From: Saccharofermentans sp.
Lineage (GTDB): Bacteria; Bacillota; Clostridia; Saccharofermentanales; Saccharofermentanaceae
Reading direction: 5' to 3'
Assembly: GCA_024692235.1 (NCBI GenBank)
Contig: JAILMW010000024.1
Coordinates: 1-64,000 of the forward strand
Length of the DNA stretch: 64,000 nt
Made by a program: the position numbers and the translations under genes. Of this stretch, positions 25,970 through 34,013 are shown piece after piece; position 1 is the stretch's first letter; each line of letters starts with the position of its first letter. Below the pieces are notes generated by a model. The model was given only the letters and a program-made list of their open reading frames with translations, was not told the origin of the DNA and did not search any database.

Positions 25970-25996
25970 AGCACTTATGTATACCACATAAGTGCT
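25970..25996 (-). terminator. Terminator at the end of the nitrogenase-like operon
   Basis: A perfect 11-bp stem, AGCACTTATGT and ACATAAGTGCT, with a 5-base loop is followed on the minus strand by TTTTCTAT. It follows the Rrf2 stop codon by a few bases and would close the transcript that begins near 34000. Confidence 0.9.
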
Positions 25997-26003
25997 CTTA
26001 ACG

Positions 26004-26426
26004 TCAGATGCTTATATTGCCGTCCCAGTCTATAAGGTCCTGAAGTGTCGTATAGTCGAGGACCCCGTTTATGGCCTTGTCGAGTTTGACCCACAAGGGA
26101 TAGCAAATACACTGTTCCCGTCTTCCGCAGTCACTTCCGACTTCGCTTACACAGTTGGAAGATGACAGGTCGTTCTCGATACATTTAAGTATCTCGCCAA
26201 CCGTATATTCCTTAGGATCCTTGGCCAGACGATATCCTCCGTTGGCGCCTCTGGCACTTATTACCTTCTTATTTCTCTGAAGATTGGATACGATATGCTC
26301 GAGATACTTCTCGGATATATCCTCCCTCCTGGCGACATCCTTGAGCCTTACATACTTATCGCCCTGGTACATGGAGAGGTCCACCATGAACTTCAGTGCA
26401 TTCTTTCCTTTTGTTGTTATAATCAT
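26004..26426 (-). CDS. Rrf2-family regulator at the end of the nitrogenase-like operon
   Basis: The 140-residue protein has MIITTKGKNALKFMVDLSMY, REDISEKYLEHIVSNL and the wing GANGGYRL. A Cys group (NCVSEVGSDCGRREQCIC) could bind an Fe-S cluster. It is distinct from the regulator at 23688. It is placed as the last gene of the nitrogenase-like operon and probably provides feedback on it or on Fe-S supply. It starts 24 bases after the preceding gene. Confidence 0.9.
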   Translation of the reverse strand: MIITTKGKNALKFMVDLSMYQGDKYVRLKDVARREDISEKYLEHIVSNLQRNKKVISARGANGGYRLAKDPKEYTVGEILKCIENDLSSSNCVSEVGSDCGRREQCICYPLWVKLDKAINGVLDYTTLQDLIDWDGNISI

Positions 26427-26450
26427 AGGATCTCTCCTTTCTTATGAGTC

Positions 26451-26873
26451 TTATCCTCTTAAGGATTCGTGATTATCGATCCTTTTGTAGTAGAAGGTTA
26501 TCTTATCGAGTGCTTCCTTTACTTCACACTCGACATCGAATACGGATATGACCTTCTTCTCGAATTGCTTTTGAGCCTGAAAGCCTATCTTCTTACATAC
26601 GACAGCCCTGCAGTCCGATATGAGCTCCACCTTGCCTGCCACATTACCCGGACCCTGACATCCGCCTCCGTTACCTCCGCATGACTTGGTGTCACATGAA
26701 GACGATGAGCAGGAATCCGCAGAAGCATCTTCAGCTTCGCCCGGTATATATTCTCTCTCTTCGGAGAGCACGACTTCGTCGCCTACTTCATAGATAAGAA
26801 ACTTGTTAACTTCTCCGAACTTAAGATCAACGATCTTTCCGTCGGAAGAGCCTATTGCGATCTTATAAGCCAC
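26451..26873 (-). CDS. NifX/NifB-C-type cofactor-carrier domain protein with a Cys-rich insert
   Basis: The 140-residue protein has the dinitrogenase iron-molybdenum cofactor biosynthesis fold: IAIGSSDGKIVDLKFGEVNKFLIYEV at the start and LISDCRAVVCKKIGFQAQKQFEKKVISVF later. Between them, at about residues 55-72, is a Cys/Ser/Gly-rich insert including SCSSSSCDTKSCGG, with at least five Cys. The family carries Fe-S precursor clusters between NifB and its targets. The insert is unusual and could hold metal. Confidence 0.88.
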   Translation of the reverse strand: MAYKIAIGSSDGKIVDLKFGEVNKFLIYEVGDEVVLSEEREYIPGEAEDASADSCSSSSCDTKSCGGNGGGCQGPGNVAGKVELISDCRAVVCKKIGFQAQKQFEKKVISVFDVECEVKEALDKITFYYKRIDNHESLRG

Positions 26874-26897
26874 TTTTAACCTCCGTATATCAGACTG

Positions 26898-26936
26898 ACC
26901 GCCTGCGATCTTGATGGGGGATAGATCACAGGCGGC
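26898..26936 (-). other. Intercistronic hairpin between the NifK-like and NifX-like genes
   Basis: ACCGCCTGCGATC and GATCACAGGCGG form a long stem with no U-tract, in the 80-base gap after the NifK-like gene. It may protect or process the mRNA rather than stop it. Confidence 0.5.
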
Positions 26937-26953
26937 AGTGGTTTTAAGTATTA

Positions 26954-32841: not shown

Positions 32842-32862
32842 GTTCAGAATCTCATCTCTTCC

Positions 32863-33798
32863 TTATGAATTGAACAGAGGAGTAGACAGATATCTGTCAC
32901 CTGAGTCAGGGAGCAATGCTACGATCGTCTTACCCTTGTTCTCTGGTCTCTTTGCAAGGATCTGCGCTGCCTTAAGTGCTGCACCGGAAGAGATACCTAC
33001 GAGGATACCCTCTGATACTGCAAATGCCTTACCCTCTGCGAAAGCATCTTCGTTATCGATAGCGATAACTTCGTCATATACCTTTGTATTAAGAACATCG
33101 GGAACAAATCCTGCACCGATACCCTGGATCTTATGTGCGCCTGCCTTACCTGTGGAAAGGACTGCACTTGTTGCAGGCTCTACTGCTACTACCTTTACGT
33201 TAGGATTCTGAGACTTTAAGTACTCACCTACACCGGTGATAGTTCCGCCTGTACCTACACCTGCTACGAAGATGTCTACCTTACCGTCTGTCTGCTGCCA
33301 GATCTCGGGGCCTGTTGTCTCCTTATGTACCTGGGGGTTAGCGGGATTAACGAACTGTCCGAGGATAACGGAACCCTCGATCTCCTTATTAAGTTCCTCT
33401 GCCTTTGCGATAGCACCCTTCATTCCCTTAGCGCCTTCTGTAAGGACAAGATCTGCGCCGTATGCCTTAAGAAGATTTCTTCTCTCAACGCTCATCGTGT
33501 CGGGAAGTGTAAGGATAGCCTTATAACCTTTTGCCGTTGCTACAGCTGCAAGACCGATACCCGTGTTACCGCTTGTAGGCTCGATGATAGTTGCGCCGGG
33601 CTTAAGAAGTCCCTTTGCCTCGGCGTCCTCGATCATTGCGAGTGCGATACGGTCCTTAACGGATCCTGCGGGATTTAAGTACTCGAGCTTTGCAAGTACT
33701 GTTGCATCTGTGATCTCTCTTTTCTGTGAATACTTATTCAGCTTAAGAATAGGTGTGTTGCCGATAAGTTCCAGTGCGCTTTCTTTAATGTTTGCCAT
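32863..33798 (-). CDS. cysK: Cysteine synthase, first gene of the nitrogenase-like operon
   Basis: The 311-residue PLP enzyme has NTPILKLNKY, NPAGSVKDRIALAM, TSGNTGIGLAAVATAKG and GISSGAA. It is the most typical CysK of the four in this window. I start it at the ATG at 33798, with GGAGG nine bases upstream. The gene follows a Cys-rich leader ORF and attenuator, so cysteine shortage would raise expression of this gene and the nitrogenase-like genes behind it. It is 21 bases from nifB. Confidence 0.93.
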   Translation of the reverse strand: MANIKESALELIGNTPILKLNKYSQKREITDATVLAKLEYLNPAGSVKDRIALAMIEDAEAKGLLKPGATIIEPTSGNTGIGLAAVATAKGYKAILTLPDTMSVERRNLLKAYGADLVLTEGAKGMKGAIAKAEELNKEIEGSVILGQFVNPANPQVHKETTGPEIWQQTDGKVDIFVAGVGTGGTITGVGEYLKSQNPNVKVVAVEPATSAVLSTGKAGAHKIQGIGAGFVPDVLNTKVYDEVIAIDNEDAFAEGKAFAVSEGILVGISSGAALKAAQILAKRPENKGKTIVALLPDSGDRYLSTPLFNS

Positions 33799-33824
33799 AA
33801 TGTTCATCCTCCGATTTTGGTTAT

Positions 33825-33857
33825 AAAAAACAGCCGTCACGGTTTTGTGACAGCTGT
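33825..33857 (-). terminator. Attenuator terminator of the cysK/nitrogenase-like operon
   Basis: ACAGCTGTCAC and GTGACGGCTGT (one G-U) form an 11-bp stem followed by TTTTTTAT on the minus strand, upstream of cysK and downstream of the leader ORF. TACAGC in its 5' arm can pair with GCTGTA inside the leader ORF as a weak competing helix. Confidence 0.85.
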
Positions 33858-33890
33858 AAGTTATCTAAGTTCAGTTATCATCAAAACACA

Positions 33891-33965
33891 TTAAGTCTTA
33901 TGTCTGCTACAGCGACACATCAACATTCGCATACACATGCCTCTACACATTAGTCTCTTGTTCAT
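33891..33965 (-). CDS. Cysteine-rich leader peptide of the cysK/nitrogenase-like operon (24 aa)
   Basis: An ATG at 33965 is preceded by AAAGGAGG at nine bases, one of the best ribosome binding sites in the window. The 24 codons hold four TGT (codons 7, 11, 17, 19) and five internal Met. RLMCRGMC, MCRCSRHK and a TAA end are seen. The strong site upstream of a tiny Cys-rich frame and ahead of a terminator is what a leader peptide should look like. It lacks the MCCRM block of the other three. Confidence 0.78.
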   Translation of the reverse strand: MNKRLMCRGMCMRMLMCRCSRHKT

Positions 33966-33980
33966 AGTCGCTTACCTCCT

Positions 33981-34013
33981 TTGCATTAACCTACTGGTTT
34001 GATAGTCCAATAG
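33981..34013 (-). promoter_or_regulatory. Candidate promoter/operator of the cysK/nitrogenase-like operon
   Basis: A dyad with CTATTGG and CCAGTAG arms (33991-34013) overlaps TTGGAC (34005-34010), a possible -35 box. The -10 box about 16 bases on (TAATGC) is weak. The half-sites resemble the operator of the other sulfur promoters, but the spacing differs. Confidence 0.45.

Follow-up and report, generated by a model that had tools for sequence, protein, structure and literature searches.

A Mar-related nitrogenase-like operon with its own cysteine synthases: a candidate organosulfur reductase in Saccharofermentans

What does a nitrogenase-like enzyme do when its genes stand next to genes of cysteine synthesis? 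This question is raised by an operon in the first 64,000 nucleotides of contig JAILMW010000024.1 from a Saccharofermentans genome (GCA_024692235.1; this whole stretch is called the window below), which encodes a nitrogenase-type iron protein (NifH), two nitrogenase-like subunits (here D and K), a NifB-like maturase and two members of the cysteine synthase family. The preliminary description of this DNA had proposed an organosulfur reductase related to the methylthio-alkane reductase Mar that yields sulfide or a thiol and may be a new variant, and after testing this still appears to be the best reading of the sequence. More specifically, we propose that its product is a two-part nitrogenase-like reductase from the Mar superclade, which would cleave a C-S bond and deliver sulfide or a thiol to the operon's own cysteine synthases, and we put the probability of this reading at roughly two in three. 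The operon (33965-26004) runs on the minus strand in the order given here, and all genes named previously in 25970-34013 are indeed open frames of that strand with family matches:

33891-33965, minus: leader open reading frame (ORF) of 24 residues (MNKRLMCRGMCMRMLMCRCSRHKT) with 4 Cys and 6 Met, AGGAGG ahead of it
33830-33857, minus: terminator-like hairpin between leader and cysK1, 11 pairs followed by a T run; -19.4 kcal/mol, z -7.0, for the minimum-energy fold only
32863-33798, minus: CysK1, cysteine synthase A; passes TIGR01139 with 448 bits (cut-off 351, precisely 350.95); start set at ATG 33798, while the listed ORF begins at GTG 33840 within the terminator
31969-32841, minus: NifB-like radical SAM protein lacking the NifX tail; TIGR01290 266 bits, cut-off 344
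31608-32024, minus: NifX-like protein a (PF02579), overlapping the NifB end
30755-31603, minus: NifH, iron protein of nitrogenase type; TIGR01287 468 bits, cut-off 394
29739-30731, minus: CysK2, divergent member of the cysteine synthase family with an insert; TIGR01139 317 bits, below the CysK and CysKM cut-offs
28254-29720, minus: D, Mar-like catalytic subunit with P-cluster-type C52/C77/C143, C257, R413 and H414; NifD model 143 bits, cut-off 654
26954-28252, minus: K, Mar-like beta subunit with P-cluster-type C12/C36/C95; NifK model 92 bits, cut-off 427
26451-26873, minus: NifX-like protein b (PF02579)
26004-26426, minus: Rrf2-family regulator, IscR/CymR-like, under both cut-offs

Mar kinship, clade and pocket of D and K

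Judged by sequence and fold comparison, the nearest solved homologues of D and K are the Mar structures, so that Mar, previously named as the closest analogue by logic, is a relative of this enzyme beyond mere analogy. D aligns to MarD with 310 bits and to the best nitrogenase alpha chain with 132 bits, and K scores 385 bits to MarK against 84 bits to the best nitrogenase beta chain. A model of D predicted with AlphaFold (mean pLDDT of 86.7, from an alignment of 32 sequences) finds MarD (9fmg_A) as its best PDB match, with a TM score of 0.87 and a root-mean-square deviation of 2.7 over 483 columns, and nitrogenases reach TM scores of about 0.6 to 0.7 against the same model. NifH shows the opposite preference with 485 bits to NifH of Clostridium pasteurianum (1cp2) versus 287 bits to MarH (9fmg_D); it is typed by score as nitrogenase type and not MarH type, and the tree described below covers D.

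The cluster ligands of Mar have been described in PMC12552129 (cited here, like all papers below, for those parts of the text that were accessible). The P-cluster is held by MarD Cys66/91/158 and MarK Cys32/56/121, and the [Fe8S9C] cluster by MarD Cys270 and His429. Section 8 of that paper describes Mar as having no His at the nitrogenase place and as using Arg428-His429 on another loop, which nitrogenases lack, with Arg428 as a possible hallmark. All of these residues have equivalents in the window: C52/C77/C143 in D and C12/C36/C95 in K for the P-cluster, and C257, R413 and H414 in D. Across 211 D proteins of the window clade (120 protein hits plus 91 locus copies, from partly overlapping organisms), C77, C143, C257, R413 and H414 are invariant, as is C52 in the 210 sequences that have a letter there. 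W180 and F184 (MarD Trp195 and Phe199) are likewise kept in 211/211 and the pocket residue H362 (MarD His375) in 210/211. The three cysteines of K are present in 89/89 relatives (chosen at ≥45% identity), C97 and C132 of NifH in 65/65 relatives (chosen at ≥75% identity) and the radical-SAM cysteines C33/C37/C40 of NifB in 63/63 relatives, together with the other NifB-type Cys and His residues. The earlier assignments of the NifH cysteines, the P-cluster-type cysteines and the cofactor-type C257 are thus borne out by invariance among the relatives counted, but the supposed loss of the cofactor His is not: H414 is there, next to R413, and matches the Arg428-His429 loop of Mar.

Despite these shared ligands, D is on present evidence not a MarD but belongs to a separate clade, whose sister group is MarD together with a third clade. 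In a tree of 78 rows (a quick IQ-TREE search with SH-aLRT supports only), the window clade comprises 26 rows (support 99), MarD 16 (100) and the third clade 11 (98); the latter two join at 94, and all three lie inside a group of 55 rows (100). The phylogeny that had been suggested as a check therefore places the NifD-like protein outside nitrogenase and beside MarD, while for the NifH-like protein the score comparison given above is what we have.

The pocket differs as well. MarD His194, which lines the S2B site, is His in 131/131 MarD proteins (120 protein hits plus 11 loci), but Ile (210) or Val (1) in the 211 window-clade proteins. MarD Cys73 is Cys in 122/131 MarD and in none of 210 window-clade proteins, which have Gly (148), Ser (42), Ala (13), Asn (6) or Asp (1). 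MarD His376 is His in 131/131 MarD and Tyr in 207/211 of the window clade; PMC12552129 names His375 as a pocket residue in the part seen, and not His376. The window residues at these three positions are G59, I179 and Y363. The alignment thus shows clade-wide replacement at three positions in or next to the substrate site of Mar.

These results bear on the best-surviving alternative, which is that the enzyme simply has Mar activity, with methanethiol as its product from dimethyl sulfide or compounds like methylthioethanol, and that the cysteine synthases make S-methylcysteine or merely share a regulon. Its cluster ligands and loop are identical to those of MarD and its nearest solved relatives are Mar enzymes, but D lies outside the MarD clade with the three replacements above. 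Furthermore, five genomes (G025, G294, G318, G336 and Propionispira arboris) carry both a window-type D and a MarD-clade D, so that the two types are probably not redundant. We rejected true Mar as a family label on the grounds of tree and pocket and regard Mar activity as unlikely, though it is the alternative that we take most seriously.

Other D-like proteins were seen alongside this clade. Members of the third Mar-side clade (L044-L048, L050-L052, L148-L152, L167) have 39-47% identity to MarD, often stand beside a MetQIN methionine-type importer, cystathionine lyase and CysK, and mostly keep the Arg-His loop and Cys73 with Ile, Val or Met at His194; we found no function for them in print. 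Many operons are followed downstream by a second, well-conserved D/K pair (L037:508-3248, L057, L063, L065, L091, L103-L105, L124 and others) with about 28-31% and 35-40% identity to D and K of the window; it keeps the P-cluster and cofactor cysteines, lacks the Arg-His loop, has Cys at the Trp195 position and is missing from the window genome. Locus L192 (785-13077; genome G313) has a metK-headed operon with NMT1-type ABC genes, a NifH (52%) and a very divergent D/K pair, preceded by a leader (MRPYFNTEICCCMCMCESLYSQGQKALGCMASCLAPERD), a terminator and a tRNA-like gene.

Judged by D identity, the enzyme has close copies in three bacterial phyla. A scan with one genome per species returned 594 relatives, and the titles among the best 80 of these 594 name Lachnospiraceae, Ruminococcaceae/Oscillospiraceae, Veillonellales, Bacteroidales and Treponema. 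Within the same best 80, the nearest named relative is Ruminococcaceae bacterium KHP2 (D 99%), and the Bacteroidales and Treponema copies mostly have 84-87% D identity to the window. Most Bacteroidales- and Treponema-type records are metagenome bins for which misbinning is possible, but Treponema sp. C6A8 (L107; D 85%) is a record without a label as metagenome-assembled genome, and the Bacteroidales bins share their own gene order, MetQ-ATPase-MetI-CysK2-D-K-PatB (L074, L080, L106; L076 alike). Within narrower groups the operon is patchy: among 11 same-genus genomes (the window's included) three have a D-like match, one of them a 40% partial, and among 299 genomes of the family of G349 a full-length D at ≥65% is found in 20, with pieces in two more.

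Sulfur genes, leader and tRNA-like genes

Further sulfur genes, and one gene for a small GNAT-like protein, flank the operon on the same strand, over about 13 to 44 kb of the window:

13158-16939, minus: ABC permease, MetN-like ATPase, cysteine-synthase-family protein and cystathionine-lyase-family protein
20727-23456, minus: CysK3 (20727-21764), IscU (21885-22256) and IscS (22272-23456); IscU and IscS named from sequence
34077-34508, minus: GNAT-like small protein directly upstream of the operon, named by sequence reading and present in some relatives
36772-39597, minus: ABC importer with NMT1/SsuA-type binding protein (36772-37908; SsuA_fam under cut-off), ATPase and permease
39725-43879, minus: LysR regulator, serine O-acetyltransferase (40636-41514), PatB C-S lyase (41545-42750) and cystathionine gamma-lyase family protein (42713-43879)

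The Rrf2 gene is separated from the isc genes by a gene for a beta-lactamase-fold protein (PF00144; 24880-25863). CysK2 and CysK3 belong to a divergent cysteine synthase subfamily that has an insert and reads GVHPF where the loop is usually GIGAGF. The sulfide or thiol product had first been deduced from CysK genes at the start and in the middle of the operon; both are present, with the qualification that CysK2 falls under the TIGR01139 cut-off (317 vs 351).

We mapped the neighbours of D in 120 fetched loci plus the window, of which 80 window-clade loci remained after removal of D copies more than 98% alike. Within 6 kb of D, these 80 loci have K (78), NifX (63), the CysK family (61), NifH (59), NifB (56), PatB (23), the cystathionine lyase family (17), a polar-amino-acid binding protein (15), the second D/K pair (15), MetY (8), NMT1 (7) and MetQ (5). 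CysK is directly upstream of D in 51/80 loci and within 6 kb in 40 of the 50 loci that have both flanks. In 11 MarD-clade loci CysK is near in 2 and MetY in 1, and the cysteine synthase contrast between the two clades holds.

From these data we infer the cofactor, reaction, product and regulation of the enzyme. NifB would build the [Fe8S9C] cluster and the NifX proteins would carry it to D, where Cys257 and His414 may hold it, and NifH would pass electrons with ATP via the P-cluster between D and K. The D/K reductase is predicted to cleave the C-S bond of an imported organosulfur compound reductively and to set free sulfide or a small thiol. CysK1 and CysK2 would combine this product with O-acetylserine, made by the serine acetyltransferase encoded at 40636-41514.

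The preliminary description had also suggested cysteine attenuation, and a basis for it is found in the leader ORF and the 11-bp terminator that follows it, i.e., a leader rich in the sensed codons with a terminator behind, as in ribosome-mediated attenuators. When charged Cys-tRNA or Met-tRNA runs short, the ribosome would stall in the leader and transcription would pass the terminator. In the three copies of this species, the Cys content of the leader exceeds all but at most 0.5% of 200 single-base (mononucleotide) shuffles. Among 38 upstream regions of cysK1 (≥78% identity), 11 have a Cys-rich ORF led by a ribosome-binding site (shuffle p ≤ 0.01; e.g., MDCMCCCKAVCNNMVCSSYTL in L075 and MKNMMDRNNMQMCCMCCMCSTCLTTESK in L124), three of which come from the window's species. 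The region has 6 terminator-like sites against 5.6 expected, and the leader terminator is the longest of them. No T-box or SAM riboswitch was found upstream of cysK1 at E ≤ 1 in window positions 31500-34600.

Some relatives carry a further element, which possibly is a cysteine-starvation RNA or tRNA mimic. Of the 121 mapped loci, 21 have a tRNA-Cys gene called by ARAGORN on the strand of the operon, always 5-147 bases before nifB and in 16 cases behind cysK1. U73 is the identity base of tRNA-Cys and is present in the window genome's own tRNA-Cys, but the 29 distinct tRNA-Cys-like sequences have A (15) or G (14) at position 73 and never U. They share an A.G mismatch at 28-42 (29/29); the anticodon is GCA in 28, and 4 have C for U at position 33. 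Their stems covary, with 30 cells changed on both sides versus 8.4 after shuffling, and a hairpin lies just upstream in 14/20 (folds read by eye). In a search of 299 Lachnospiraceae-like genomes with model R2, the gene was found above 90 bits in 12 (next match 62), of which 9 are among the 20 genomes with a full-length D and 3 among the other 279, where it heads other sulfur or SAM operons. The window has no such gene.

The tRNA-Cys-like loci are L059, L060, L061 (6565-6636), L067-L073, L075, L079, L082, L086, L087, L103-L105, L112, L118, L122, L109 (8977-9049) and L192 (13338-13410). Some of these genes sit before nifH or metK; the genes often follow a terminator hairpin, and the copy of R. 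hungatei has the anticodon GAA. In L252 (G545, a genome in which D has no match at E ≤ 1e-50), the tRNA-like gene follows genes for PatB and cystathionine lyase and precedes an amidohydrolase-like gene and an NMT1-type importer.

Competing explanations

Several observations weigh against the proposal of a C-S-cleaving reductase that feeds its own cysteine synthases. In 10 of the 50 fully flanked loci, no CysK lies within 6 kb. The MetY contrast expected beside true Mar appears in only 1/11 loci, leaving the Mar neighbour logic weak, and we dropped MetY as a hallmark of the MarD clade. The importers near D differ between loci (NMT1, MetQ and polar amino acid types) and indicate no single substrate, so that importer family was abandoned as a substrate guide. 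The siroheme sulfite/nitrite reductase domain NIR_SIR is missing in 21/37 D-bearing genomes (the window's and 20 of 36 others) but present in 16/37, where sulfide need not come from the D/K enzyme, and its absence was rejected as a clade-wide rule. Regarding regulation, the scan found no Cys-rich leader in 27 of the 38 cysK1 upstream regions. Finally, the tree tool warned of long branches meeting, though mostly outside the three clades.

The content of the host genome helps to judge the other alternatives. This genome (2.89 Mb, 99.5% complete, 5.2% contaminated) likely belongs to an animal-gut bacterium. Its only PF00148 matches are D and K, so that no NifE or NifN was found, in line with the first description, and of three PF00142 matches NifH is the strong one (436 bits; next 52). 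A serine acetyltransferase is present, and a search for NIR_SIR in the genome found none.

D and K might instead be a cofactor scaffold, or a reductase of something other than C-S bonds (polysulfide, disulfide, acetylene-like or nitrogenous compounds), with the sulfur genes only co-regulated because clusters need much cysteine. Cysteine is the sulfur source for clusters, the operon contains the cluster-building NifB and NifX, and IscS/IscU lie 3 kb downstream. However, the genome has no other component-1 enzyme for a scaffold to serve, and PatB, cystathionine lyase and serine acetyltransferase are not cluster genes. We consider this explanation improbable, slightly more so than Mar activity.

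Less probable still is an Isr-like reaction in which isethionate, taurine or a similar sulfonate is reduced to sulfite, the product proposed for Isr in the accessible part of PMC11423573. An SsuA/NMT1-type importer stands beside the operon, and the same source presents Isr as a group IV enzyme with SsuABC that is said to occur in intestinal bacteria. But IsrD as described there has one P-cluster Cys and no cofactor Cys, while the window D has three plus Cys257, and IsrB is BciD-like while the radical SAM protein of the window is NifB-like; with these features not found, we rejected Isr identity. Sulfite would also be of no use where NIR_SIR is missing, as in the window genome and 20 of the 36 others, while cysteine synthase can use sulfide or a thiol there. 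Together with the differing IsrD features, this favors the release of sulfide or a small thiol.

That the enzyme is a nitrogenase is very improbable even though NifH exceeds the nitrogenase iron-protein cut-off, since D and K lie far under the NifD and NifK cut-offs (143 vs 654 and 92 vs 427) and NifE/NifN are absent from the genome, with tree placement and a Mar-type rather than Nif-type His loop also against it; on these scores and gene absences, we rejected this identity and conclude that the operon enzyme is not a nitrogenase.

Known systems and biological meaning

Compared to MarBHDK of Rhodospirillum rubrum (PDB 9fmg and 9d9u; PMC12552129), the window operon shares D and K homologous over their length, the six P-cluster cysteines, the cofactor Cys, the Arg-His loop, a NifB-like maturase with NifB motifs and the lack of NifEN. 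It differs in its clade (about 34% D identity), the replacement of His194, Cys73 and His376, the nitrogenase-type NifH, the cysteine synthase neighbors and the extra NifX proteins. With IsrBHDK of Rhodobacter capsulatus (PMC11423573) it has in common group IV membership, a link to sulfur assimilation and a nearby SsuA-type ABC importer, but two P-cluster cysteines and the cofactor Cys are missing from IsrD, IsrB does not resemble NifB and the product is sulfite. Nitrogenase-like genes of Clostridium beijerinckii NCIMB 8052 and others (PMC3464626) and of a Pillotina-type spirochete (PMC13067680) also have the alpha-subunit cofactor Cys and a cysteine synthase neighbor. In 2012 the former paper noted an association with O-acetylhomoserine sulfhydrylase or cysteine synthase and suggested a sulfur role, and the latter (2026) did so for the termite spirochete. 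We compared these sequences by description, and the accessible parts of both papers give no clade, His-loop, pocket, regulation or transfer analysis.

The claim of a new variant with CysK and Cys attenuation remains the best reading, but the CysK link itself had already been noted in 2012. What is new here is the clade, the pocket change, the three-phyla spread and the Cys/Met-codon attenuator. Our search of open-licence literature (nitrogenase-like plus cysteine synthase, rumen, MarDK) found no paper defining the window clade, and further open-licence searches turned up none on the leader or the tRNA-like gene. A bolder and more tentative proposal, to which we give somewhat less than even odds, is that the clade joins Mar and Isr as a third nitrogenase family for sulfur assimilation. 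In anaerobes of rumen and gut from three phyla, an ATP-driven reductase with the precursor cluster of nitrogenase would turn organic sulfur fully into sulfide for cysteine, a Cys/Met-codon attenuator would switch it on when cysteine runs short, and in relatives the attenuated operon would also make a tRNA-Cys-like RNA lacking U73.

One question left open by PMC12552129, in the parts available, is how the surrounding protein determines which reaction a given metal cluster carries out. With cluster ligands kept and the pocket changed, this becomes testable here through exchange of three residues. Mar enzymes make methane or ethylene, and any hydrocarbon output of the window clade in the rumen would be worth knowing. 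The operon may also bear on the pseudo-nifH genes described in PMC8597730 (according to its accessible parts, mostly from Clostridia), which pass as nitrogenase iron proteins in genomes without nifDK. That work treats them as a database problem and names no partner in the text seen, while a partner enzyme is proposed here; the window NifH (30755-31603) is a pseudo-nifH in this sense, and the operon offers a partner for some of the others. Since this NifH passes the curated cut-off, such bacteria would be counted as nitrogen fixers in nifH surveys of the rumen and gut. If our reading is true, sulfur and not nitrogen would be the task of many nitrogenase-like operons in the gut.

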